NCBI GenBank assembly: GCA_013388835.1
Contig: JACAEL010000018.1
Span: forward strand, 1 to 64,000
Direction: 5' to 3'
DNA from: Candidatus Thorarchaeota archaeon
Lineage (GTDB): Archaea; Asgardarchaeota; Thorarchaeia; Thorarchaeales; Thorarchaeaceae
DNA: 64,000 nucleotides
In this document: one piece after another, positions 13,430 through 43,535 of the stretch
How positions within the stretch are numbered: position 1 is the first letter of the stretch
Layout: every line of letters begins with the position of its first letter
Program-made: the position numbers and the translations under genes
Notes under the pieces: model-generated
Databases searched by the model: none
Seen by the model: the letters and a program-made list of their open reading frames with translations, nothing else
What the model was told of the DNA's origin: nothing

Positions 13430-13731
13430 CTGGACATCTCTCCCGGTCTACCGAAATGCCGCTTTTGACGTTATCTCGTACGAGACCATGAGTTGACAGA
13501 TGGAACCTCGCTGGGCATCGACCACCATATGTCGCAACAGAGAGCAATCGCCCGAGTGGGACAGCCATGTGATTCTTCAGTGCCTGTGTGCCCGGCTGGC
13601 AATCAGCCCTATGACACCAGCATATTGACAGACAGCGCATTCGCACGGTGCAGCACTCTCAGAACCCGGAGCACTATCAAGTCGCAGGGCTTATTACCTC
13701 AAGGGCTCATGCCTGTCATGGTCGGTGCATC
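13430..13731. other. Divergent promoter region with 12-bp palindrome
   Basis: About 300 bases between the membrane-longin gene and the longin-GTPase operon. TCTCGTACGAGA at 13474-13485 is a perfect 12-base palindrome about 45 bases before the minus-strand start, a possible operator. TTATTA near 13691 is a TATA-like element for the plus-strand operon. Confidence 0.4.
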
Positions 13732-15006
13732 TTGGCTAAGCACAGCATTCAAGCCATCCTCATAATGGAAAGAGGCGGCATACCGCTCTTCTTCCTGAAA
13801 CTTGACCCTAGAGCCCAAGACCTCGACCCGCTGTTGGTGTCCGGTTTCTTCTCAGCCATGCAGCTGTTCTCAAAGGAGGTAATTGATGGCGTCACTCCTG
13901 TCTTCCAAGTCGACTATGGTGCCAGGCTCTTCACGGTGATCTCAGGTGAGTCCACCGACTTGGTGGCAATAAGCGAAGGCAGATGGGAAGAGGGGACATC
14001 CGGTCTGCTTCTGTCACTGCTACAGGAGTTTGAGCAGGTCTGGTTCAAGAACCTGACCCACCAAGAAAAGGACCACCTCAACATCAACACCTGTTTCCCA
14101 TCCTTCAGGGAGAGTGTGATCCATATGCTCGAGGTGCGAAACATCTCAGAGACGTGGGTTCCGTTCATCCGGGAGGAGCGTGGACGCGAGATAGACTCCT
14201 CCATGCTACCCACACTTGACCTGATAGACGGGAATCGGACCGTAGAAGTGATAGCACAGGAGAGCACACAGTCACGCGACGAAGTGATAAGCAGACTCAC
14301 GTTACTGTGGGCGCTGGGTACCATCGACTTCAGGAATGTCCTCAACCCGGACGATGTCGTTGTCGCTACCTCTCGCCTCGACAGACTCCTCCAGAGCTCC
14401 TCACCTCAGAGGATAGAACTGGCCAAGAAGTCGGCTGAGACAGTGCTCATGCTTTCTCGTCTGGTGCCGCTTCTTGACGGAAGAAGGACAATGGGTTCGG
14501 TCCTTGCTGCTCTGCGTGAGCACTACAGCGAGGAGAAGGTCCGGGGAGCTCTCGACACTCTGCTCTCGCTCAAGGCCGTCGAGACTCTATCACCAGAGAA
14601 GCGGAGGATACTGCTCCTAAAGGAGGCAACTGACATAGCAATCCGGGTTGCAGAAAAGGCATATTCCAAGACCGCTGTGTCAAAGGCCATGGAGGGGGTA
14701 TTGAATAAGATGGGTACGGCCGAGGTTGCGGGAGACCTCATGATGTCAGAGAACTCCTGGACCGTCAATTACGGCATCCGCCTATACGAGGGCATGAATC
14801 CACGGCGGCTCATGGAGGTGTACGCGGAATGGATGAAGGTACTTGCGCAGTTTGTGGAGGCACTTGACGCAGAGGGGAAGAAGAAGTACATCGAGGGACT
14901 GTGCGAAGCGTATCAGGAATACCTACTCCAGAGATACGGCAGCGGTGACCTGCGAGGCTTCGAGGAGATGACTTTCTGGTTGGAAATGGCAAGTGCGGAG
15001 CGTTGA
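13732..15006 (+). CDS. Longin-like domain fused to winged-helix-like C-terminal region
   Basis: A 424-residue soluble protein. Residues 1-110 carry the longin-like domain (IQAILIMERGGIPLFFLKLD; GFFSAMQLFSKEV). From about residue 165 follow helical blocks such as LPTLDLIDGNRTVEVIAQES and LVPLLDGRRTMGSVLAALRE, which look like two winged-helix units of the kind seen in PatA/DUF4388-type regulators, and then a helical tail. I choose a TTG start at 13732: GGTG lies five bases upstream, and the first beta strand of the domain begins before the first ATG (13765), as the alignment with paralogues shows. It precedes a small helical protein and a GTPase, so it is a candidate GTPase regulator or effector. 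Confidence 0.65.
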   Translation: MAKHSIQAILIMERGGIPLFFLKLDPRAQDLDPLLVSGFFSAMQLFSKEVIDGVTPVFQVDYGARLFTVISGESTDLVAISEGRWEEGTSGLLLSLLQEFEQVWFKNLTHQEKDHLNINTCFPSFRESVIHMLEVRNISETWVPFIREERGREIDSSMLPTLDLIDGNRTVEVIAQESTQSRDEVISRLTLLWALGTIDFRNVLNPDDVVVATSRLDRLLQSSSPQRIELAKKSAETVLMLSRLVPLLDGRRTMGSVLAALREHYSEEKVRGALDTLLSLKAVETLSPEKRRILLLKEATDIAIRVAEKAYSKTAVSKAMEGVLNKMGTAEVAGDLMMSENSWTVNYGIRLYEGMNPRRLMEVYAEWMKVLAQFVEALDAEGKKKYIEGLCEAYQEYLLQRYGSGDLRGFEEMTFWLEMASAER

Positions 15007-15010
15007 CAAC

Positions 15011-15358
15011 ATGAACGAGACGAGGACCCTAGACAGACCAATATACAAGATTGCAGACATCTTGGGCAGAAGAGCTCAGACTATATACGGGAGGCAGACT
15101 GTGATTGACCTCTGCTCGAAGGCGGGCGTTTCTCTAATGGACGACTACGACGACGACATCAGAGACGTCGATAGCGATGAGGCTCTGATGGACTTCGTGA
15201 CCAGGTATGCTAGGATGAGCCCAGCTGCCCGACTGACGGTCTTGACTCTGGCAAAGCAATACGGAGTCACACTTCCCGAGGAGCTCACCAAGAAGAGGAA
15301 ACACTCACTCAAAGAAATAGTTGAAATGCTCGTGCAGTATCTTCCCAGACAGCCATAG
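15011..15358 (+). CDS. Small helical protein of the GTPase operon
   Basis: A 115-residue protein of unknown family, rich in charged residues and predicted helical, with an acidic central patch (DDYDDDIRDVDSDEAL) and a basic C-terminal third (ELTKKRKHSLKEI). It has no membrane segment and no cysteine cluster. It starts five bases after the stop of the longin-winged-helix gene and ends about 60 bases before the GTPase, so the three probably form one transcript. It may be an adaptor or GTPase-binding protein; this rests on position alone. A GTG at 14993 would overlap the upstream gene. Confidence 0.6.
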   Translation: MNETRTLDRPIYKIADILGRRAQTIYGRQTVIDLCSKAGVSLMDDYDDDIRDVDSDEALMDFVTRYARMSPAARLTVLTLAKQYGVTLPEELTKKRKHSLKEIVEMLVQYLPRQP

Positions 15359-15416
15359 GACGCCCAGCAGAAAGACTGAACTAGAGGATTGTTGACTCTG
15401 AAGGACGGTTGCGACA

Positions 15417-15929
15417 ATGAGCCCACACTATCTGTTCAAGGTCATCCTAGTCGGGTCCGCTGCGGTGGGAAAGACTAGCATGGTACTCCGGTACACCACA
15501 GGCAGATTCAGAGAGTACTATGCACCGACCTTGGGTGCGGACTTCGCGACCAGAGCTGTGGAGACCAGTAAGGGGAAGGTCAAACTTCAGATCTGGGACC
15601 TCGGGTCGCAGGACTTTCTGGGCCGCGTCAGGGCCAAGTACTACCGCGGTGCACGCGGCGTCCTCTTCTTGTACGACGTCACCAACAAGGACTCGTTCCG
15701 CGAGATTGAAGCGTGGTGGAAAGAGGTCACATCAAACGTAGAAGACACATTCAACATCATTGTTGCCAACAAGACGGACCGCTCAGACAGGATCATCTCC
15801 ACACAGGAAGGAGAAGAGCTAGCATCCAGGTACTCTGCTGGCTACATGGAAACATCCGTGAAGTCGAACGAGGGGGTCGATGACCTCTTTGCACTCATGG
15901 CAAAGCGAATCGCAGAAGCGACTATCTAG
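15417..15929 (+). CDS. Rab/Ras-like small GTPase
   Basis: A 170-residue GTPase complete for all G motifs: P-loop GSAAVGKTS (residues 13-21), switch I threonine in YAPTLGADF, WDLGSQ (60-65) keeping the catalytic-type glutamine, NKTD (about 118-121) and ETSVK near 145. Ras-family proteins cycle between GTP and GDP forms to recruit effectors. WDLGSQ replaces the usual WDTAGQ. No C-terminal cysteine is present, so prenyl anchoring of the eukaryotic kind is unlikely. It is the last gene of the longin-containing operon. Confidence 0.93.
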   Translation: MSPHYLFKVILVGSAAVGKTSMVLRYTTGRFREYYAPTLGADFATRAVETSKGKVKLQIWDLGSQDFLGRVRAKYYRGARGVLFLYDVTNKDSFREIEAWWKEVTSNVEDTFNIIVANKTDRSDRIISTQEGEELASRYSAGYMETSVKSNEGVDDLFALMAKRIAEATI

Positions 15930-17644: not shown

Positions 17645-18184
17645 ATGAGCCTGCAGACTGCAGCAAGATCCCCCACTTACAAGGTCATCATGATGGGGCC
17701 CGGAGGATGTGGAAAGACCAGCATAGCACTCAGAGTCACACAGAACCGCTTCCAAGATGACCTGCGAATGACCATCGGAGTCAACTTCCACTCACTTCGA
17801 GTGGAGTGTGAGGGGAAGAGCGTGAATCTCGTACTGTGGGACCTAGCAGGACAGCCGCGGTTCAAGGATGTCGTAGCCGGCTACTTCAAGGGGGCACACG
17901 CAGCGATTGCAGTATACGATGCGTCCCGCCCAATGACTCTCGCAGATCTTGACGGCTGGATTGAAACCGTGAGCCTTCAGGCACCGAAGGCGAAGCTGGT
18001 CGTGGTGGGCAACAAGACGGACATAACTGACGGCTTCAGGGTGTCGTTCGATGAGGGCTCTGAGTTCGCACTGAGGCATAACGCAGTCTTCTGTGAAGTG
18101 TCCGCAAAGACAGGCGAGGGGGTTTCTGACCTGTTCAAGACGACGGCATGCGGTATTCTGACGAATGCGAGCGGCCCGGCATGA
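17645..18184 (+). CDS. Small GTPase, module A
   Basis: A 179-residue Ras/Arf-like GTPase. Motifs: GPGGCGKTS (18-26), switch I in RMTIGVNF, WDLAGQPRF (65-73), NKTD (123-126) and VSAK (152-155). It is closely similar to the GTPase at 21179 (both have MTIGVNF and GQPRF blocks) and more distant from the one at 15417. There is no C-terminal cysteine for lipid attachment. It converges on a membrane gene whose paralogue lies in the same operon as the 21179 GTPase, so it probably belongs with the zinc-ribbon, longin-like and membrane genes at 18.5-20.7 kb. Confidence 0.93.
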   Translation: MSLQTAARSPTYKVIMMGPGGCGKTSIALRVTQNRFQDDLRMTIGVNFHSLRVECEGKSVNLVLWDLAGQPRFKDVVAGYFKGAHAAIAVYDASRPMTLADLDGWIETVSLQAPKAKLVVVGNKTDITDGFRVSFDEGSEFALRHNAVFCEVSAKTGEGVSDLFKTTACGILTNASGPA

Positions 18185-18499
18185 AGAAAGTGTATCCCTG
18201 CAGGTCAGCGTCTCGCCCGTGAATGTTCTGCATACCCCCTGCATCAACACTTCCTCGACTCCCACCGCCACATTCGTTCTGCATGCCAGGCCATTGACCT
18301 ACCATCTCATGTGGTAGTGCCAGTGTCGCGAGTGGGACGTCATGCTACCGGGATGCTGTGTCTCATCCTTGCACGCCGGACGCCACGCTGAGCTGGCCGG
18401 GTGCTCACGCGTTCAGACGCCCGCCGTCACGGTCTTCATCTGTGCACATCGAACGATTGACGACGTCGTTGGACTGAAGTACCAACGACTACCTGCCCA
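18185..18499. other. Convergent intergenic region
   Basis: About 315 bases between the ends of GTPase A and membrane protein A. I see no reading frame with homology, no tRNA and no strong terminator hairpin. Confidence 0.4.
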
Positions 18500-19867
18500 T
18501 CATCCGCTGCCCTGCCCAGGCGCCGCCTTACCCAGCCATCTGTCCAAGCGACCGGTCAGGCCGGACCAGAACAGCCCGATGCCGATGGTCAGAATCGGAT
18601 AGGAATAGACTGGGTCGAGGTTCACCGCCTTGACCACAGTATAGAGAAGAATCCCGAGGGTGAGTGAAAGGGCTCTGTAGGGTGCTCCTCCCTCAGTCCT
18701 TGTGAGCCACCATGCCCTGAGGAAGACCACTACAGGGATGACAAGGACCAGGATGAATGAGATGCCCAACACGGTCAGGATGTCAGTCAGTGACCACGGG
18801 TCAGCGGGATAGGCAAGGTAGAGGTAGATGGCCGCAGGAGTAATCAGGATGGGCGGCACCAGGACAGTATTCCTCCAGCCTGCAGCAAGAAGAGCAGTCA
18901 TTGCAAACATGGTCATGAACACCATGCCACTTGCCATGCTAAAGTAGGTGGTATTGATTTGACTTACCAGCCCTCTGCTTGCCAGAGTGCCTATGAGCTG
19001 GTCAGAGGCCACTGCTGAAAGGGCGACTATCAGCATCAGTGTTGCAGCGGAGTGATTCTTTCTCCAGCGACCATACAGGTACGCGGCTGTTCCTGTCGCC
19101 ATGGCCGCTCCCAGAGAGCTGATGCCGACAAGTATGGCCACTACTGGTTCGGCCCATACACCACCCCACTGGATAAGGCTCACAGCAATGACTGGGCTTG
19201 CCAGACTGGCTCCGTAACCGATGAGTTCCAGAGACAAGTCTTGTTCGGTGTTAAGAAACGAGAAGATGACCATGCCGGCACCGAGCACTGCCGGGTATAT
19301 CATCGAGAGGTCCATTGGTTCACCAAGACTGTGAAAGAATCTGAGAACGTAAGGAATCTGAGCAAAGACCGCAGCAGCAATAGCAAAGCTGGTTGGACGT
19401 TTGGTTTCGCGGGCCACGTAACCGAACAGAATCCCTACCGATAGGAGGAGCAGGACCAGAAAGACGACTCCTACTGCCTCGAGGAAGAAGATGCTCAGGG
19501 CCACTCCATAATAAAAGGACGCCCATGTCACAAGAGCATAGACAGTCAGCGGAGCTGTGTACCGTCGGGTCTGCCCGGTTATCAGAAGCACTGCCAAGGC
19601 GAGCAAGACACCCTCGATCAGCACGCCTATCCACACGGAGGTTCTGTCAAAGGTCAGACTGAGAAACACGTCGCGGTAAGCCGAGTTGAGCACTACGAAA
19701 CCGAAGAACGCGTAGCTGGCCGCGATATAGTAGAGCACCGCGAATGGCCTCTTCTCTTCAGTAGAGAGCCCCAGTCTCTTCATCCGAGTGTAATATGCAA
19801 TAGTACCAGCAGCGACAATTACAGCCGCACCCAGATAGAGTTCAGTGTGACCAAACCATGTGGACAT
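18500..19867 (-). CDS. Polytopic membrane protein, module A
   Basis: A 455-residue protein that is almost entirely hydrophobic, with about 13 membrane segments and short loops. It is a paralogue of the protein at 22637: both share EQDLSLELIGYGAS-type and ATGTAAYLYGRWR-type blocks in the centre and a C-terminal WSGLTGRL-type or WLGLTGRL-type ending. I recognise no transporter motif and cannot assign a family. The start at 19867 lies two bases after the stop of the longin-like gene and has AAGGTG nine bases upstream, matching module B; an ATG at 19891 would overlap that gene. It may be a sensor, transporter or membrane scaffold controlled by the neighbouring GTPase. Confidence 0.75.
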   Translation of the reverse strand: MSTWFGHTELYLGAAVIVAAGTIAYYTRMKRLGLSTEEKRPFAVLYYIAASYAFFGFVVLNSAYRDVFLSLTFDRTSVWIGVLIEGVLLALAVLLITGQTRRYTAPLTVYALVTWASFYYGVALSIFFLEAVGVVFLVLLLLSVGILFGYVARETKRPTSFAIAAAVFAQIPYVLRFFHSLGEPMDLSMIYPAVLGAGMVIFSFLNTEQDLSLELIGYGASLASPVIAVSLIQWGGVWAEPVVAILVGISSLGAAMATGTAAYLYGRWRKNHSAATLMLIVALSAVASDQLIGTLASRGLVSQINTTYFSMASGMVFMTMFAMTALLAAGWRNTVLVPPILITPAAIYLYLAYPADPWSLTDILTVLGISFILVLVIPVVVFLRAWWLTRTEGGAPYRALSLTLGILLYTVVKAVNLDPVYSYPILTIGIGLFWSGLTGRLDRWLGKAAPGQGSG

Positions 19868-19869
19868 CT

Positions 19870-20310
19870 CTAGAACACCTTCTCTCCCCATTCCTTCGCC
19901 TTTTCACGTATCTCGTCCAGTGTCGACTTCGACCACTTGAACAACTCCTGCTTCGCCATTTCCGAAGCCTCATCCCCGATTGCCATCAGGTCCTTCAGCA
20001 AGCAGACGAAGCCATCATCAATGGGACCAACCTTCTCCGAGAGCATTCGCACAACAGCCCTATGCCTTGTTTCCGCCTTGGTATCCGCAACAGTGTGCAG
20101 AGTCACAACGTAGCCATCATTGATTCTGCTCATCAGGAGTTGCAGCTCACCAAACTTCAACTCGCGCACTTCATCGCCTGATACATGCTTCACGAAGATC
20201 TGCAGAGCTGAGAGAAACCCGCCGAATAGCATTGCGTCGCCCTTCAGGTGCTCGAATCCAACCGACGCTCTAGTAATGCCAGCATCATCGATGACGAAGA
20301 TCCCTTCCAT
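19870..20310 (-). CDS. Longin/roadblock-like protein, module A
   Basis: A 146-residue soluble protein. It begins MEGIFVIDDAGITRASVG, followed by FGGFLSALQIFVKHV, a beta-hairpin segment (ELKFGELQLLMSRINDGYVVTLH) and a helical C-terminus ending KEWGEKVF. The order strand, loop, helix, strands, helix fits the longin/roadblock fold found in GTPase regulators such as MglB and the TRAPP/SNARE longins; this is judged from pattern only. The start is fixed by alignment with the module B paralogue (MHGAFLMSQQGETLASVG). Longer in-frame extensions are unlikely. It lies between the zinc-ribbon gene and the membrane gene. Confidence 0.72.
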   Translation of the reverse strand: MEGIFVIDDAGITRASVGFEHLKGDAMLFGGFLSALQIFVKHVSGDEVRELKFGELQLLMSRINDGYVVTLHTVADTKAETRHRAVVRMLSEKVGPIDDGFVCLLKDLMAIGDEASEMAKQELFKWSKSTLDEIREKAKEWGEKVF

Positions 20311-20423
20311 GTTACCACATCCAGATGTGCAGCGATTCGGCCCTTTTATCCTGGATATGGGCAGCCATGCCGCTCTTGTCCAAAAACACTGAAAGGCAGC
20401 TGTTCGTTTCAATCATCCTCCGG

Positions 20424-20684
20424 TTACAAAGAGTCGAGCCAACGCTTAGTCTTCTGAACACTCTCTTCATCAATGGTTGAAGCCTCAGCTGCCAGTTCCA
20501 CATCACGTATCTCGAACCGTGCGTCAACATACGCCACAATCGAGTGACCGTTCTCGCACTTTGCAGCGACCATGACTGGATGCTTCTTCGCACTCAGCAC
20601 GAGATCTTCTTCAATCTCAATGCGAATCCTCGTGCCGTCCTTGCATCCGGGACAAGGTACAGGTTTCAGTGTCCTTTTTCCCAA
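20424..20684 (-). CDS. Small zinc-ribbon protein, module A
   Basis: An 86-residue protein with ligands C11-x2-C14 (PCPGCKDG) and a second pair in AKCENGHSIVAYV, giving a likely Cys3-His zinc site. A long helical tail follows. It starts with TTG, preceded by GAGGAG seven bases upstream; the module B paralogue also starts with TTG, has the same length and puts its first cysteine at residue 11. The small size and single metal site suggest an adaptor rather than an enzyme. It is the first gene of the zinc-ribbon, longin, membrane operon. Confidence 0.78.
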   Translation of the reverse strand: MGKRTLKPVPCPGCKDGTRIRIEIEEDLVLSAKKHPVMVAAKCENGHSIVAYVDARFEIRDVELAAEASTIDEESVQKTKRWLDSL

Positions 20685-21178
20685 GGTGGGTCTCCTCGAT
20701 TCTAATCGCCGATTCGCTGTACTGAGGGGAGGGGTGATATTAAGTACTTATCCTTTCCTCGTAACAAGAACATCATGTCCGGAATCGACATCAGTCGTTC
20801 ATTGTGTCCTGTGACCAGTATCGAAGGCAACTGGCGCCATAGACCTCTAACGAGAGTACAGTTGTGAACGGTGCTGCCAAGTACTACTGCTGAGCAATGT
20901 GATCCGATGAGACCGAGGGCGGCCAAGTGCCTGTCAACCTCATCTGCGGAACGGTGTTAGGCAGACAGCAGTCGTGTTGAAAGTCAGGTGCTCCGTCGCA
21001 TGATGTGCGAGGGAGGCATGGAGACGTCTCATTACGTCATCAGACCTCGACGAGTCTTTGCGCGATTGATAGTTCGGCCGTGGGTTTCTGGCCCAACATG
21101 ACAGATCCAAGCAGACTGCGGGATGACTACCACCAGCAAGTTTCATATGGGTCATGCATGACGTACACGAGACTCAAG
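20685..21178. other. Divergent region between modules A and B
   Basis: About 490 bases separating the two paralogous operons. On the minus strand CTTAATATC (20736-20744) is a TATA-like box placing the module A transcript start about 30 bases before its TTG. On the plus strand TTTCATATG (21141-21149) could serve GTPase B. The remaining 400 bases show no gene I can support. Confidence 0.5.
20736..20744 (-). promoter_or_regulatory. TATA-like box of module A operon
   Basis: Read on the minus strand this is CTTAATATC, preceded by a purine-rich AGGATAAG stretch that could be a BRE. It lies about 52 bases before the TTG start of the zinc-ribbon gene, giving a leader of roughly 30 bases. Confidence 0.45.
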
Positions 21179-21703
21179 ATGAAGTCCAGTGTGCGAGGAC
21201 CAGTGGGCAAGACAGTGCTAATAGGCGAGGGTGGCGTCGGGAAGACTAGCCTTGCTGTCAGATACACAGAGGACCGGTTCGACGAGAAAATGAAGATGAC
21301 CATTGGAGTGAACTTCGCATCCAAGAAGGTCAAGCTCGAAGGCAAGGAGGTCACGCTCCTCATATGGGATCTCGGAGGCCAACCGCGATTTCAGGAGGTC
21401 GTTTCAAGTTACTTTGTTGGGGCCCTACTGGCCATCGCTGTGTACGAGGTACCTACGCCCTACACCCTATATCGATTGGAAGACTGGATTCGGCGTCTTC
21501 ATGAGAGTGTTCCGGACTGTCCAGTCTTCATAGTAGGCAACAAGACGGACGAGAGGGGAGATGGCTCCGTCACAGAGTCGCAGGCGATGGAGTTCGCTGC
21601 CAAGTACGGTGCGCGACACTTCTTTGTCTCAGCCAAGAATGGCACAGGAGTAGAGGACATGTTCAATGCAGCAGCAGCTCTGGTAGCACAGAGGCTGCGA
21701 TGA
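21179..21703 (+). CDS. Small GTPase, module B
   Basis: A 174-residue Ras/Arf-like GTPase. P-loop GEGGVGKTS (16-24), switch I KMTIGVNF, WDLGGQPRF (63-71), NKTD and VSAK are all present, so it should bind and hydrolyse GTP. WDLGGQ is nearer to Arf-type WDVGGQ than to the Ras WDTAGQ. The C-terminus (AQRLR) lacks prenylation cysteines. The ATG at 21179 would be nearly leaderless with the TATA-like element at 21141; an ATG at 21158 would add seven residues. It is first in a five-gene run: GTPase, zinc ribbon, longin-like, polytopic membrane protein, seven-segment membrane protein. Confidence 0.92.
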   Translation: MKSSVRGPVGKTVLIGEGGVGKTSLAVRYTEDRFDEKMKMTIGVNFASKKVKLEGKEVTLLIWDLGGQPRFQEVVSSYFVGALLAIAVYEVPTPYTLYRLEDWIRRLHESVPDCPVFIVGNKTDERGDGSVTESQAMEFAAKYGARHFFVSAKNGTGVEDMFNAAAALVAQRLR

Positions 21704-21788
21704 CATCAGAAGTTGGTCGAATGACAAACGTGGTCACGCTACAGAGTTCGGATAGGGCTCTGTGGCGTCATCGAAGGAAGGGATAGTA

Positions 21789-22049
21789 TTGACGCGAGTA
21801 AGCCTTGCACCATTCAGGTGCCCAGCCTGTCCAGATGGGAAGCAGGTAATGATGGAAGTCGATGACGAGAAGATTCAAGCCGCAAAGAGGTTTCCAACAC
21901 CCGTGACAGCCAAATGCACGAGAGGACACGCTCTTGTAGTCTTCGTGGATAGAGACCTTCGAGTTGTCGATGTGCAGACTGCTCTTTCCGTGTCGGAAGG
22001 GACGAAGGATGCCGTCGAACGGGCCAAGGGATGGTTCGAAACGCTCTAG
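21789..22049 (+). CDS. Small zinc-ribbon protein, module B
   Basis: An 86-residue paralogue of the protein at 20424, with the same length and the same cysteine positions: RCPACPDG at 10-17 and AKCTRGHALVVFV later, a probable Cys3-His zinc site, then a helical C-terminus ending WFETL (WLDSL in module A). The TTG at 21789 is chosen because it reproduces the module A N-terminus and has GGAAGGGA just upstream; a GTG at 21762 would add nine residues with no counterpart. Position after the GTPase suggests an adaptor role. Confidence 0.78.
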   Translation: MTRVSLAPFRCPACPDGKQVMMEVDDEKIQAAKRFPTPVTAKCTRGHALVVFVDRDLRVVDVQTALSVSEGTKDAVERAKGWFETL

Positions 22050-22180
22050 CCTTGCAGACCAGGGCAACAGCGACACAAATAATCTTATTATTCGTCATGC
22101 ATCAGTCGAATCCATCCAGTTATCAGTCGGGACCAACTGGTATTTGGACAATGAAGTACAGACTTGCGGGGACAGCGAAT

Positions 22181-22624
22181 ATGCATGGTGCCTTTCTGAT
22201 GAGCCAGCAAGGGGAAACCCTCGCCTCAGTGGGAATGGACAGACTTGGCATGGACACTTCGGCGTTTGGCGGCTTCGTAAGTGCAGTCCAGATGTTTGCG
22301 AAGAAGATTGCCAGCAATGAGTTGAGCGAAGTCAAGATGGGGAAGATGAAGATGATAGTCAGCCGTGCAAAGGACAACTATGTCGTCACCTTGCACTCTG
22401 ACGACGACGAGATGGCGGCAAGAGAGAACAGCACCATCGCACAGATTCTCTCTTCGGAAGAGGGGGTGGCGTTCGATCAGGTGTTAGTAGACAGGGTGTC
22501 CCAAATCGTGCCGTCAGACCACAGTCTTCCTGAGGAAATGAGAGAGAGCCTCCTCGACTGGTCTCGAAAAGAGTTGGAGCATGCAAAGAGAGCGGCCAGC
22601 GACTGGGCCAAGTCGGTCTTCTGA
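22181..22624 (+). CDS. Longin/roadblock-like protein, module B
   Basis: A 147-residue paralogue of the module A protein at 19870. Shared blocks include GETLASVGMDRL versus GITRASVGFEHL, FGGFVSAVQMFAKKI versus FGGFLSALQIFVKHV, MKMIVSRAKDNYVVTLH versus LQLLMSRINDGYVVTLH, and DWAKSVF versus EWGEKVF at the end. The start is set by that alignment; in-frame ATGs further upstream overlap the zinc-ribbon gene or extend into a spacer with no counterpart. The fold is inferred to be a small GTPase-binding longin/roadblock type. Its stop is 12 bases before the membrane gene. Confidence 0.72.
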   Translation: MHGAFLMSQQGETLASVGMDRLGMDTSAFGGFVSAVQMFAKKIASNELSEVKMGKMKMIVSRAKDNYVVTLHSDDDEMAARENSTIAQILSSEEGVAFDQVLVDRVSQIVPSDHSLPEEMRESLLDWSRKELEHAKRAASDWAKSVF

Positions 22625-22636
22625 AGGTGATTAGCA

Positions 22637-24109
22637 ATGCAGGTAACGCCAAGTGCAGTGTATGAGATGGGAAACCTGTACTTTGGGGCAGCCAATATCG
22701 TTGCGGCGCTGACGATCGTCCTGTATAGTATCAGGAAGTCACGGCTGGCAGAACCAGAAACGAAGAGCGCATTCCGCCCGCTGATTGTCATTGCCATGGC
22801 ATTCCTGTCGCTCGGAGTGGGGTACATCCTCACCTCCTACGAGAGCAGGTTTGGAGTGGTACTGCTCGTCAAGGAGTACTACTTGCTGTATCTCTTCTTA
22901 TTGGCAGAGCTCATCCTGCTCGGATTGTCTGGAAGCATGGTACTAAAGAGGCGTTACCCCTTGATTGGGGCCACTGCAGTAAGCGGCATATGCGCAGTTC
23001 TGCTTGCTGCAGCGATTGTGCTGACTCTCCAGTCAGGTTCAGACCCCGTGGCGGACATGTACTTCTTTGCAGGCTCACTGATCCGGTCAGTGACCCTAAC
23101 CTTTGTGTCTGCAGTATTCTTATGGATAGCATACAGTAACAGGCGAGGCACTTCCACAGCACTCGGATTTGCTCTAACGGTGCAACTGCTTGCTCTGCCA
23201 GGGTTGTACACGGGGCCCATCGCCACGGCTCCGCTAAACATGATTGCCTACTTCTTCTCACTGATGGGACCTGCAATGGTGACCTTCGCGTTTCTCGTGC
23301 CAGAGCAGGATGTTTCACTGGAGCTGTTTGGCTACGGTGCCAGTTTCTCCGGACCAGTCATGATTGTCGCTGCACTCGAAGGCATGGGCTACGGAGTTAT
23401 CTTTCCACAGTCAATCTATGCCGGCTTCGCAGGTTTGGCGGTCATGGTATCGTCTGCCACAGCCGCGTACCTCTACGGTCGATGGCGTCAGTCAAGACAA
23501 ACCCCTACACTTGCGTTGACCCTCTCATTCGGACTCCTGTCCGGTTCACACATGTTCGGAGTGCTAGCAATGTCGGGGGCAATGCCGACTGCACTCGGAC
23601 TGCATATCGAACTAATCGGAACAATGATGGCGTTTGCACTCTTCTCAAGCGTGGCTATCAATGCCGCAGGCCATAGGACACTCGGCGCGTTCCCATTTCT
23701 CATAGCAGTCCCAGCAATAGTTCTTGCGTCTGCTAATTACCCTGATTCCACGTTGTACTTGATTACAGAGGGTGCATTCATGGCCGTGCCCCTAGTCATC
23801 CTGTTCATTACACCCTCGATATTCTACCTCTTGGTGTGGAGAAACATGAGAAGAACGGGAGCGGCAGGCTCCTCCAAGCCGCTCTGCCTAGCAGTCGGAG
23901 TCCTTGCGGTGATAATGATTCACATGACTGCAGTCTTTGCCTCCATGGAGGGCCTCCATGCAGGATATGCACTGGCTTCAGCACCATACCTCCTGATGTG
24001 GTTGGGTCTTACTGGAAGACTGGAGCCTAGAGTACGAGGGCCAGCTCGCACTATCAATCCCCAGTCCGTTTCAAGTAATAGACACGAAGGTGCAAACACT
24101 GCAGATTGA
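22637..24109 (+). CDS. Polytopic membrane protein, module B
   Basis: A 490-residue hydrophobic protein with about 13 membrane segments, paralogous to the protein at 18500. The best conserved stretch is EQDVSLELFGYGASFSGPV together with SATAAYLYGRWRQS, probably one membrane segment and a basic cytosolic loop that could contact the soluble module proteins. GGTGAT lies about seven bases before the ATG. The C-terminal tail after WLGLTGRLEPR is short and polar. I cannot place it in a known transporter or receptor family. It is followed at once by another membrane gene. Confidence 0.75.
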   Translation: MQVTPSAVYEMGNLYFGAANIVAALTIVLYSIRKSRLAEPETKSAFRPLIVIAMAFLSLGVGYILTSYESRFGVVLLVKEYYLLYLFLLAELILLGLSGSMVLKRRYPLIGATAVSGICAVLLAAAIVLTLQSGSDPVADMYFFAGSLIRSVTLTFVSAVFLWIAYSNRRGTSTALGFALTVQLLALPGLYTGPIATAPLNMIAYFFSLMGPAMVTFAFLVPEQDVSLELFGYGASFSGPVMIVAALEGMGYGVIFPQSIYAGFAGLAVMVSSATAAYLYGRWRQSRQTPTLALTLSFGLLSGSHMFGVLAMSGAMPTALGLHIELIGTMMAFALFSSVAINAAGHRTLGAFPFLIAVPAIVLASANYPDSTLYLITEGAFMAVPLVILFITPSIFYLLVWRNMRRTGAAGSSKPLCLAVGVLAVIMIHMTAVFASMEGLHAGYALASAPYLLMWLGLTGRLEPRVRGPARTINPQSVSSNRHEGANTAD

Positions 24110-24119
24110 AAGCGTCGTG

Positions 24120-24896
24120 ATGCGAACATTCGACCTAGACTTCATCTATTTCGACATTGGCTTAACAGCCGTGTGGATGCTGATTCTCTGGAGGAAGAAC
24201 AGACGACTGCCCATTGTATTCGGTCTGATGGGCTTCGTGGTCTATCTCATCTTCGACTATGGTATTTGGTACTCCCTGCTTCACACAAGGGTCTTCTATG
24301 AACTGCCGACATGGTTGAACCCATTCACGTTTCTGCTGTACTTCTCATTCACCTATGGGATGGTCCAGTTCTCCTATGTCACACTGATACTGACAGAGCA
24401 GCCTGACAGGAACGAAATCATCTTCTTCTCGGCACTGCTTTATGTGGGATGGCTCGCAATAGGGCTTGCTTCTCAGCTCATTCCCATGGACGATGCCCAG
24501 ATCTCTATCGCCCGGATTATGACTGCACAGCGCGGCATTCAGGCGGTCGCAGTAGCTGTCGAGTATCTTGTACTGCTCGCATTAGCGCAGAGGGGAAAGA
24601 TTGGACTCACATTTCAAAGAGTCGTGTTCATCTTCGCAGTCGGGGTGTTTGTGCACTTTTCGATGGAATCGACCCTGCTGATCGTGGGAGTCCGTAACTT
24701 CAGCTTGTTCGACTTGCTGTTTGACAGCCTGCTTGAGTTCAATACAGGTGCCCCCGTGCTCTACATTCTAGGACACTACGCCCGTCAGTTCATGCACGCA
24801 AGGGCAGACTTGACACCAGGGCCAGAGGGCCCGGCAACCACCACAGGAAAGACCATCGGCAGCGGCGGGGTTTCATCATCGTCTAAGTGCTCGTAG
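24120..24896 (+). CDS. Seven-segment membrane protein downstream of module B
   Basis: A 258-residue protein with seven hydrophobic segments and a polar, serine/glycine-rich cytosolic-looking tail. It begins MRTFDLDFIYFDIGLTAVWM. No retinal-lysine or transporter signature is obvious, so the family is unknown. The ATG at 24120 lies ten bases after the stop of membrane protein B; a GTG at 24090 would overlap it. Module A has no equivalent, so this gene was either gained by B or lost from A. Confidence 0.65.
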   Translation: MRTFDLDFIYFDIGLTAVWMLILWRKNRRLPIVFGLMGFVVYLIFDYGIWYSLLHTRVFYELPTWLNPFTFLLYFSFTYGMVQFSYVTLILTEQPDRNEIIFFSALLYVGWLAIGLASQLIPMDDAQISIARIMTAQRGIQAVAVAVEYLVLLALAQRGKIGLTFQRVVFIFAVGVFVHFSMESTLLIVGVRNFSLFDLLFDSLLEFNTGAPVLYILGHYARQFMHARADLTPGPEGPATTTGKTIGSGGVSSSSKCS

Positions 24897-25474: not shown

Positions 25475-25637
25475 CGCTCGCTGGTCGCCGGCATCACAAG
25501 TCAGCGTCATGCAAGCGCCCTAGCCAGTGTAGTTTGGGGTCGTTCCACTACGAGTCTGCTGTTGCACAGCATTGGAAAGCGAAGAGGGCAAATGCTAATG
25601 GCGTGTTGGGCGGTCCTAGCGAGTGGGATCACGGTCG

Positions 25638-26060
25638 ATGGAGCTCGCAGAGAAGATAAGGTACACCCTGAAAGGAGAGATGGATGAGTCAATCCGCTTT
25701 CTGCTTCTCTTCGGCTCGCAAGCGTCTACCACAGCTGGTCCTCTCAGCGACATCGATGTTGCGGTCTACATTGGCCGTTCAGTCTACAAGAGAGATGGTC
25801 CTCGGGCAGCTCTGAAACTGGGTGTGTTGCTGGAGAGAGGGCTTAAGACCGAGGATGTCGATGTGGTTGTCCTGAACGGGGCCAATCCCGCGATGCGGTT
25901 CAACGTCATCCGTGCGTGCGTTCCTATTGTAGTGCAGGACGAGGGTGAGTACGAGGACTTCGTCGTGAAGGTGCTTTCTGAGTACTACGACTATCTGCCC
26001 TTCTTGGAGGAGCAGTTTCGTGCAGCCAGAGCATCACTGGAAGAGGGTGCGGCACAGTGA
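25638..26060 (+). CDS. mntA: MntA-like nucleotidyltransferase (antitoxin)
   Basis: A 140-residue minimal nucleotidyltransferase. G26-S27 followed ten residues later by D38-x-D40 (GSQAS…SDIDVAV) is the GSx10DxD motif, and D75 in DVDVVV is the third acidic residue. In characterised MntA/HepT pairs this protein AMPylates a tyrosine of the HEPN toxin and neutralises it. The ATG at 25638 follows an in-frame GTG at 25623 that I consider less likely. Its stop overlaps the start of the HEPN gene by four bases, the usual operon layout. Confidence 0.85.
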   Translation: MELAEKIRYTLKGEMDESIRFLLLFGSQASTTAGPLSDIDVAVYIGRSVYKRDGPRAALKLGVLLERGLKTEDVDVVVLNGANPAMRFNVIRACVPIVVQDEGEYEDFVVKVLSEYYDYLPFLEEQFRAARASLEEGAAQ

Positions 26061-26479
26061 GTGATTCCGAGCTCAAGTCCCGAGTCCTCTTTCTCCAAGA
26101 AGCACTCAGGAAGCTCGGAGAGATTGCATTGGCTAAGAAGGAAGACTTCTTGGCCAAGTACACGCTTCGCGATTCTGCTCTGCGAAACTTTCAGGTTGTA
26201 ATCGAGTGTCTCACAGATATCGGCAATTACATGCTGAGGCGGGGAAAGCAGAAGACACCTGAAACCCGAGCTGAGGTGTTTCAGCTGCTCTGCCGTGCCG
26301 GGCACCTCCCTGCGGAGCTTGAGAACGACCTAGTCGAGATGGCCCGATTTCGAAACCTGCACGTACACACCTACTCCGCTGTGAATCTCTCCTATATGTG
26401 CGAAACACTTCAGCGACGCCTGACCTTCTTGAAGAAGGTTGCAGCTCTAATCACGAGGGTATGCAGCAGCCGCCCATGA
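26057..26479 (+). CDS. hepT: HepT-like HEPN ribonuclease (toxin)
   Basis: A 140-residue all-helical HEPN protein of the DUF86/HepT type. R99-N-L-H-V-H104-T-Y106 matches the Rx4HxY motif exactly; R and H form the RNase site and the tyrosine is the residue modified by MntA in studied systems. It begins with GTG overlapping the MntA stop. All key residues are present, so the pair is probably a working toxin-antitoxin or abortive-defence unit. No other defence gene is adjacent. Confidence 0.87.
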   Translation: MSDSELKSRVLFLQEALRKLGEIALAKKEDFLAKYTLRDSALRNFQVVIECLTDIGNYMLRRGKQKTPETRAEVFQLLCRAGHLPAELENDLVEMARFRNLHVHTYSAVNLSYMCETLQRRLTFLKKVAALITRVCSSRP

Positions 26480-42416: not shown

Positions 42417-43535
42417 ATGAAGATGTCCTCGCCCCCAACTACGAAAGGAAGTGTGATCTCAAAGGTCCTCGTGCTTGGCCTAGATGGGGCTCTGCAGGCG
42501 GGCTTTCTGGCGAGGGCATCGGGGACTTGTTTCTCATACAGCCTATACACATCGCTTGGGATTGGTATTGGCGTGACCAGATTCGAACACAGAGGTTTCG
42601 TCGACATCACGCTTCAACTCTGGTCACTGCCACATCACGAACAGTGGCAAAGAACCATAGCCAGCTTCACAAAAGGCCGCAGTGCGACGGTGCTGGTAGT
42701 CAGACCCGATGAAGTTGCGAGGATACCGGAGATCGTATCCATCCTTGAGAGGCCCGATGGCGAACCTGTCACGATAGTACAAGTCGGTCAAGAACCGGTA
42801 GACGAGACCAAGACCGCGATAATCACCGATGTCTTCGCACGCTCCGTACTGACACACAACAACGCATCGATTCCAGACGTGCTCATGTGCTTGGGAGACC
42901 TGATTATGGACTCGGTTCAGAGACAGCGCATCGATATGTTCCTGATACCGCCAGAGGACTGCCCAGCAGCGATTCCAGAACGAGACTTTGAGAGCGGTCT
43001 TCTAAACAGCGAAGTTGAAGTGCAGGCGATCAGGTCGCTTGCAACCAGCCTTGGACTGGAGTGCGACGACGACGAGTGCTTCATTCCTCTTGCGAAGGGG
43101 TCTGCCGTAGTCAACCTGTGGACGGCCTCAGTCAAGTTCTACCCCATCTTGTGCGAGATGTGCGAGAACAAGTGCACGAGAAAGAGCAGCATATGTATCG
43201 TGAGTACACACAACGGCTGGTCGCGGGGGGACCTTGGTGAGAAGGCTCTCCTCACAATGGCAAAGATCTACGCGCTGAGTACGGGAGACCTTCCAAAGGA
43301 TGTCGTCAGCCAGCTCAACGCATCGGCATCGTGTGCAAAGTTTAGGGCCTCTTCAGAGTACGACTCCACCGCAGTACAGGAGGTCCTGAGTGCACTCGGC
43401 TACAGACCGTACGAAAGCAGATGGACGCTGCTGGACGAAGCAATGAAGAGGGTTCTTGTGGGCAAGCTCAGCGCCGACGCATACGACACACTGAATAGGC
43501 TGCTTCAAAAAGCCCTGACTCGCTGCACGCACTGA
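42417..43535 (+). CDS. Pseudo-GTPase domain fused to a cysteine-cluster domain
   Basis: A 372-residue protein. Residues 13-150 align by eye with the GTPase at 15417: SKVLVLGLDGALQAGFLA matches FKVILVGSAAVGKTSMVL, and DITLQLWSLPHHEQW matches VKLQIWDLGSQDFLG. Every catalytic signature is lost: the P-loop has no GK-S/T (residues 21-29), WDxxGQ is WSLPHHEQ, and NKxD is replaced by the QVGQEP region. The C-terminal part has C246-x2-C249-x3-C253-x6-C260, a possible zinc or Fe-S site. It is probably a non-hydrolysing scaffold derived from a Ras-like GTPase. Expression looks leaderless from the TTTATA box. Confidence 0.7.
   Translation: MKMSSPPTTKGSVISKVLVLGLDGALQAGFLARASGTCFSYSLYTSLGIGIGVTRFEHRGFVDITLQLWSLPHHEQWQRTIASFTKGRSATVLVVRPDEVARIPEIVSILERPDGEPVTIVQVGQEPVDETKTAIITDVFARSVLTHNNASIPDVLMCLGDLIMDSVQRQRIDMFLIPPEDCPAAIPERDFESGLLNSEVEVQAIRSLATSLGLECDDDECFIPLAKGSAVVNLWTASVKFYPILCEMCENKCTRKSSICIVSTHNGWSRGDLGEKALLTMAKIYALSTGDLPKDVVSQLNASASCAKFRASSEYDSTAVQEVLSALGYRPYESRWTLLDEAMKRVLVGKLSADAYDTLNRLLQKALTRCTH

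Follow-up and report, generated by a model that had tools for sequence, protein, structure and literature searches.

Several described systems bring small GTPases together with proteins of the longin/roadblock superfold. The closest to the locus reported here are the actinobacterial conservons (AGPS; CvnA-D; PMC4316618, PMC8510531, PMC13343842), four-gene operons that encode a membrane sensor, a longin/roadblock-superfold regulator, a small protein and a Ras-like GTPase, and that occur as several diverged copies per genome with an optional fifth gene. In Myxococcus, the Ras-like GTPase MglA is encoded with the roadblock GAP MglB, and a further group of longin-fold proteins (Mon1-Ccz1, FUZ, HPS1 and the TRAPP longins) act as exchange factors for Rab GTPases. 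Asgard archaea, which are related to the ancestors of complex cells, possess dozens of small GTPases of their own, and a 2016 review listed among its outstanding questions whether operons would reveal the targets of these enzymes (PMC4917890). A 2024 structural study found operons to be of little help in the Lokiarchaeon MK-D1, the GTPase genes of which do not generally share operons with genes for roadblock, longin or TRAPPC3 proteins (PMC10933270).

The window (the whole stretch of DNA that was analysed, 64,000 nucleotides) corresponds to positions 1-64000 of contig C18 in a Thorarchaeota genome of 3.0 Mb that is 97.6% complete and contains 37 matches to the Ras family. It harbors two diverged copies (‘modules’ A and B) of a four-gene set that encodes a Ras/Rab-type GTPase, an 86-aa zinc ribbon (ZR), a longin-fold protein (LON) and a polytopic membrane protein (MEM), arranged as follows:

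17645..18184, + strand: GTPase A, 179 aa, Ras/Rab type (PF00071, E 1.2e-39), convergent with the remainder of module A
18500..19867, - strand: MEM-A, polytopic membrane protein of 455 aa, without a Pfam or NCBIfam family
19870..20310, - strand: LON-A, probable longin-fold protein of 146 aa, member of family A2
20424..20684, - strand: ZR-A, zinc ribbon of 86 aa, start codon TTG preceded by GAGGAG, C2CH ligand pattern
20685..21178, no strand: intergenic region separating the divergent ZR-A and GTPase B genes, sequence read directly
21179..21703, + strand: GTPase B, 174 aa (PF00071, E 3.3e-41)
21789..22049, + strand: ZR-B, zinc ribbon of 86 aa, TTG start
22181..22624, + strand: LON-B, 147 aa, probable longin fold from AlphaFold2 topology and Foldseek
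22637..24109, + strand: MEM-B, polytopic membrane protein of 490 aa, about 15 predicted helices
24120..24896, + strand: accessory membrane protein of 258 aa, about seven segments, present in some type I modules (see below)

An earlier note on this DNA had described two modules of four families at these positions; all of the open reading frames are present, and the four A-B pairs are homologous well beyond chance. In BLASTP comparisons the GTPases are 46% identical (E 3e-54), the zinc ribbons align gap-free over their full 86 residues at 34% identity (E 1e-22, with CPxC...C...GH aligned), the LON proteins are 33% identical and collinear (E 1e-30), and MEM-A and MEM-B are 26% identical over 475 columns (E 7e-31) and have the EQDxSLEL and YLYGRWR blocks in common. 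The sequences bear out what the note had read from each pair: zinc ribbons of equal length with matching cysteines and TTG starts, collinear LON proteins of 146 and 147 residues, and the two blocks common to the membrane proteins. Both TTG starts are preceded by an SD-like stretch, and several relatives have ATG at the same position. The five genes of module B form a block and share a strand; module A consists of a ZR-LON-MEM block (- strand, 20684 to 18500) and a tail-to-tail GTPase gene (+ strand, 17645-18184), so that it contains the same four families, as claimed, but is not a single transcription unit. The seven-segment protein, which the note had counted in module B, is indeed there, but as an accessory of some B-type modules and not as a general part: it is 43-44% identical to genes at the same place in two other genomes (loci L075 in G037 and L077 in G033) and persists as a remnant in G045. 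The idea that it represents half of a MEM protein was rejected on comparison. When the module proteins were searched against Pfam and NCBIfam, only the GTPases were recognised, whereas ZR, LON, MEM and the seven-segment protein had no family above cut-off; the operon adds three protein families that are absent from the libraries searched. PADLOC found no match to anti-phage defence systems.

Two other gene clusters lie close to the modules. At 13648-15929, 2 kb from module A, is another regulator-GTPase cluster, composed of a 452-aa protein, a 121-aa protein and a Rab-like GTPase; the N-terminal part of the first of these resembles a longin (E 2.8e-6 with the A2 profile when two sequences were searched). 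Just past module B, at 25623-26479, an MNT nucleotidyltransferase and a HepT-like RNase are paired in the usual toxin-antitoxin arrangement. Elsewhere in the phylum, five type I loci from one subgroup have large PAS-domain, winged-helix regulator genes nearby (cluster 9).

By every sequence criterion that was applied, the four-gene set is a real conserved operon. A search with LON-B in 79 related genomes yielded 40 wider stretches, onto which all of the families were mapped, and a phylum-wide search with a ZR profile added type II blocks in further GTDB families; a single-sequence scan of genome contigs with MEM-B returned nothing, and an alignment-based scan gave matches. The co-localisation that the note had expected in other genomes was found: the final MEM profile has matches at 30 places in 23 of the 228 genomes of the phylum, distributed over four GTDB families (MEM is absent from the other 205), and ZR-LON lies directly before MEM, on the same strand, at all 26 places where upstream DNA is visible, the remaining four beginning at a contig end. 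The gaps between LON and MEM range from -4 to 27 bp. A same-strand GTPase gene adjoins the block at 23 of these 26 places; at the others it is convergent (module A), absent (contig C91 of G026) or not visible (one each).

The blocks display two gene orders: GTPase-ZR-LON-MEM (type I), in which the seven-segment protein sometimes follows MEM, and ZR-LON-MEM-GTPase (type II), in which a second LON sometimes follows the GTPase. The type II GTPase gene mostly overlaps the end of MEM or lies within 6 bp of it (G038, at 227 bases, is the exception). Since the GTPase gene precedes ZR in type I and follows MEM in type II, the linkage has outlived rearrangement. Type II blocks occur in three further GTDB families (f9, G136; f5, G050; f16, G223), while another f9 genome, G076, contains the order GTPase-ZR-LON-MEM and, at the start of a different contig, the end of a MEM gene with GTPase genes after it. 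Both types of block are present in each of three other genomes (G026, G033 and G042). Reduced forms are found as well: G017 retains a ZR-LON remnant without MEM, and the MEM-less derivatives comprise one tandem copy in G026 and the locus of G069, where LON and the GTPase persist, the ZR frame is broken and MEM is missing. Outside the phylum, where the scan used type I MEM patterns, all eight matches were to Thorarchaeota.

MEM has no homologue of known function, and its properties were derived from modelling and alignment. The AlphaFold2 model of MEM-B (pLDDT 83.4, pTM 0.81) contains about 15 membrane helices, which agrees with the polytopic protein of the earlier note but not with its count of about 13 segments. 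With the N-terminus placed outside, lysine and arginine residues number 20 on the cytosolic side and three on the outer side, and a like skew is present in all 21 sequences; conservation is likewise much higher inside than outside (0.58 versus 0.43, Mann-Whitney p 1e-21), and four residues (E229, R282, P353 and P393) are invariant. A conserved cytosolic face combined with a variable outer face would suit the docking of cytosolic partners. Neither MEM-A, MEM-B nor ten aligned members matched HisKA/HATPase or any other Pfam family. A Foldseek search of the PDB gave no match at E 1e-3, including to 7TM receptors (plain GPCR matches were at E 0.1 or worse), and the best match, to LYCHOS (E 5e-3, TM-score 0.24-0.32), is not a fold match. 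An internal repeat is not claimed (profile comparison of the two halves, E 0.019, probability 2%).

Several of these features would also fit a MEM protein that is a transporter or channel, with the GTPase, LON and ZR serving as its cytosolic gate or trafficking control and relaying no signal onward. The roughly 15 helices, the conserved cytosolic face and the invariant glutamate, arginine and prolines are all compatible with such a protein, and LYCHOS, the weak best match, contains a transporter-like domain. However, MEM matches no Pfam transporter family, the loci have no metabolic neighbour genes in common, and the LYCHOS scores are too poor to indicate a related fold; we consider this explanation unlikely.

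The assignment of LON as a longin rests on a model of moderate confidence: the fold is likely, and its details are unreliable. In the AlphaFold2 model of LON-B (mean pLDDT 64, rising to 77-83 in the central sheet) the elements run b-b-a-b-b-b-a-a plus a further helix, which is the longin order, and the N-terminal helix of roadblock proteins is missing. The Foldseek matches listed are longin or roadblock structures (COPI core, MglB, the AP sigma small chain, VAMP7, Ragulator and Mon1-Ccz1), of which the COPI core alone passes E 1e-3. Thus, the longin-like fold proposed in the earlier note is supported by topology and by structural matches, at the moderate confidence of the model. No LON protein exceeds the curated Pfam cut-offs for longins; the best lead, Fuz_longin_1, is below cut-off both in an A2 member (E 0.0018) and in the LON of locus L073 (E 0.0079, 16.8 bits versus a cut-off of 26.1), and was rejected as a LON-specific mark because it matches many longin proteins across the phylum. 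Profiles of LON, MEM and ZR gave chance matches only against the sequences of solved structures.

Longin-like genes also occur in other settings. The host genome (contig C33, L136:1802-4870) and genome G009 (L137:6703-9785) have a conserved trio in which a pair of longin-winged-helix proteins encoded side by side (about 310 and 450 aa) precedes a MinD/ParA-type ATPase, and many Thor genomes contain adjacent pairs of Fuz_longin_1 matches that resemble this pair. At ten loci, a third (‘solo’) group of LON paralogues adjoins genes for a Robl_LC7 protein and for an Asgard gelsolin (E 3e-15 with the profile of PDB 7c2f), beyond which lie ABC transporter-like genes. At eight type II Thor modules, a divergent flanking gene has a gelsolin-like stretch, and at most of these an AsnC/RAM-domain gene also flanks the module.

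Longin folds are found in coat and SNARE proteins that do not regulate GTPases, and a second alternative is that the set forms a membrane-trafficking or cytoskeleton module, in which MEM would recruit the GTPase to a patch of membrane and so organise actin or coat-like proteins. The longin fold of LON being nearest to the COPI and AP small chains, the gelsolin-like gene beside type II modules in eight Thor genomes, and the roadblock gene and clear gelsolin gene beside the solo LON paralogues all point in this direction. Nevertheless, the type II neighbour is weak (E 0.002, profile-profile) and confined to a single family, it is absent at the modules of the window, and the common synteny may reflect descent, so that we regard this alternative as quite unlikely.

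In the zinc ribbon, C11, C14, C43 and H47 are invariant in 16 members and would provide two ligand pairs of the CxxC/CxxH type. The ZR domain is also found outside the module, across the phylum. In Lokiarchaeota-type genomes (family f2, the name being inferred), it ends proteins of about 200 aa that have a longin-like first part (PF13774, E 0.011 in one of five scanned); ZR-family domains occur in other proteins of 170-290 aa from such genomes as well (L090-L098). In G050 a ZR domain adjoins another GTPase, and in the host genome (contig C78, L100:5241-6280) one adjoins a small GTPase and is joined to a winged helix that resembles DUF742 (E 2.9e-4, below cut-off), DUF742 being the CvnC family of conservons. 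DUF742 is not among the matched families listed for the ZR proteins of the modules. CvnC is likely a GEF (PMC13343842), and the L100 locus is a possible archaeal counterpart of CvnC-CvnD. The Loki-type fusions, L100 and G050 are leads, not proof, that link ZR to the control of GTPases.

The GTPases of the modules are a dedicated subfamily. Those of modules A and B and of the other genomes group together, apart from the other GTPases of the host genome and with the exception of one very long branch, and a single clade is not rejected (p-AU 0.44); GTPase B and its counterpart in the type I module of G028 are 63% identical. Two candidates were set aside: the GTPase at L122, whose branch, although next to GTPase A in the tree, is very long, and the open reading frame at 42417-43535, a weak match that is not a GTPase and was left out of the second tree. 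The module GTPases retain the P-loop glycines, the switch II glutamine (GQ), NKxD and SAK, and hydrolysis is therefore possible, as judged from these motifs. Seven residues (M38, P69, R70, V74, F79, A87 and R99) set them apart from the other GTPases of the genome, and the first five of these are at or beside switch I and II. The last six residues lack cysteine in 23 of 24, so that a eukaryotic-type C-terminal prenylation cysteine is not found there.

The components have a common history. Type I and type II fall on opposite sides of the MEM and LON trees (support 100/99), and the ZR tree makes the same split with lower support (93/98), which shows joint descent of the three genes. MEM-A is the deepest branch on the type I side (100/99) and MEM-B nests among type I orthologues from other genomes; the two copies in the window therefore stem from an old duplication, in keeping with the paralogy proposed in the earlier note but not with a recent event. 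The notion that the genes are neighbours by descent only, with unrelated functions, draws on the many loci that come from one GTDB family, but it is strongly disfavoured, and very improbable, given the same block in four families with MEM identities near 20%, two gene orders, overlapping genes, and the joint loss or decay of several parts in G017 and G069.

Four genes kept together across distant lineages probably encode one membrane signalling machine. Our preferred reading, to which we give a rough probability of 55%, is that a single G-protein signalling unit, anchored in the membrane, is built from ZR, LON, MEM and the Ras/Rab-type GTPase dedicated to them; from the linkage, the folds and the conservation of residues we infer its physical association, its direction of control, a ligand and an output. 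MEM would be embedded in the cell membrane, its conserved face turned to the cytosol, as a docking platform or, as a guess, a sensor. LON and ZR would bind this face together with the switch regions of the GTPase and set its nucleotide state, as a GEF or a GAP. The GTPase, without a lipid-anchor cysteine of its own, would be held and switched at the membrane through MEM, LON and ZR, and would relay the signal onward. ZR, LON and the GTPase may also work without MEM, because 205 genomes lack it and MEM-less derivatives exist. The earlier note had argued for a functional complex, probably a GTPase-controlled membrane receptor, transporter or scaffold; co-localisation and the probable longin fold favour the complex, and a GTPase-controlled membrane complex is the best reading, in which MEM may be a receptor, a transporter or a scaffold.

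A more ambitious version of this signalling unit, which we put forward tentatively and judge unlikely, is a receptor-coupled Ras/Rab-type pathway in Asgard archaea, where membrane receptors of a new, multi-helix class would control the GTPase through a longin-zinc-ribbon exchange factor, with the receptor lost or gained across lineages. If true, it would constitute an archaeal forerunner of the control of eukaryotic Rab/Rag GTPases by membrane receptors. In either form, the operon names one GTPase subfamily and a putative set of partners for it that can be tested: a longin regulator, a zinc ribbon and a membrane protein.

No account of this operon was found in the open-access part of the literature that was searched, and each of the known systems corresponds to it in part. 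LYCHOS (GPR155), a cholesterol sensor, couples membrane sensing to Rag GTPase signalling; MEM has no sequence similarity to it, and the structural match is not significant. The longin Rab GEFs have in common with LON the probable fold, a Rab-like partner GTPase and the family Fuz_longin_1, to which two LON members have their best Pfam lead, whereas LON is a single domain of 130-150 aa that falls below the Pfam cut-off. The GTPases and longins of PMC10933270 belong to the same organism group and protein classes (Thor-Rab; a longin predicted in MK-D1), yet the GTPase genes described here do sit in an operon with a longin gene. MglA-MglB also pairs a Ras-like GTPase with a regulator of this superfold, and MglB is among the best Foldseek matches of LON, but the LON model is without the roadblock N-terminal helix, and the Asgard module has ZR and the polytopic MEM in addition. 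Like the conservons, the module has a Ras-like small GTPase within its operon and exists as a syntenic four-gene unit in several paralogous copies. However, CvnA is a histidine-kinase-like membrane sensor and MEM is not; CvnB is a Robl_LC7 protein, whereas LON has no PF03259 match and a longin topology; CvnC is a DUF742 protein and the ZR of the module is not; and the conservon GTPase belongs to ATP_bind_1, whereas that of the module is a Ras protein (PF00071) without an ATP_bind_1 match. With three of the four component definitions (CvnA, CvnB and CvnC) thus failing, the module is not a conservon, but by analogy it would work like one, on the same plan and with different parts.
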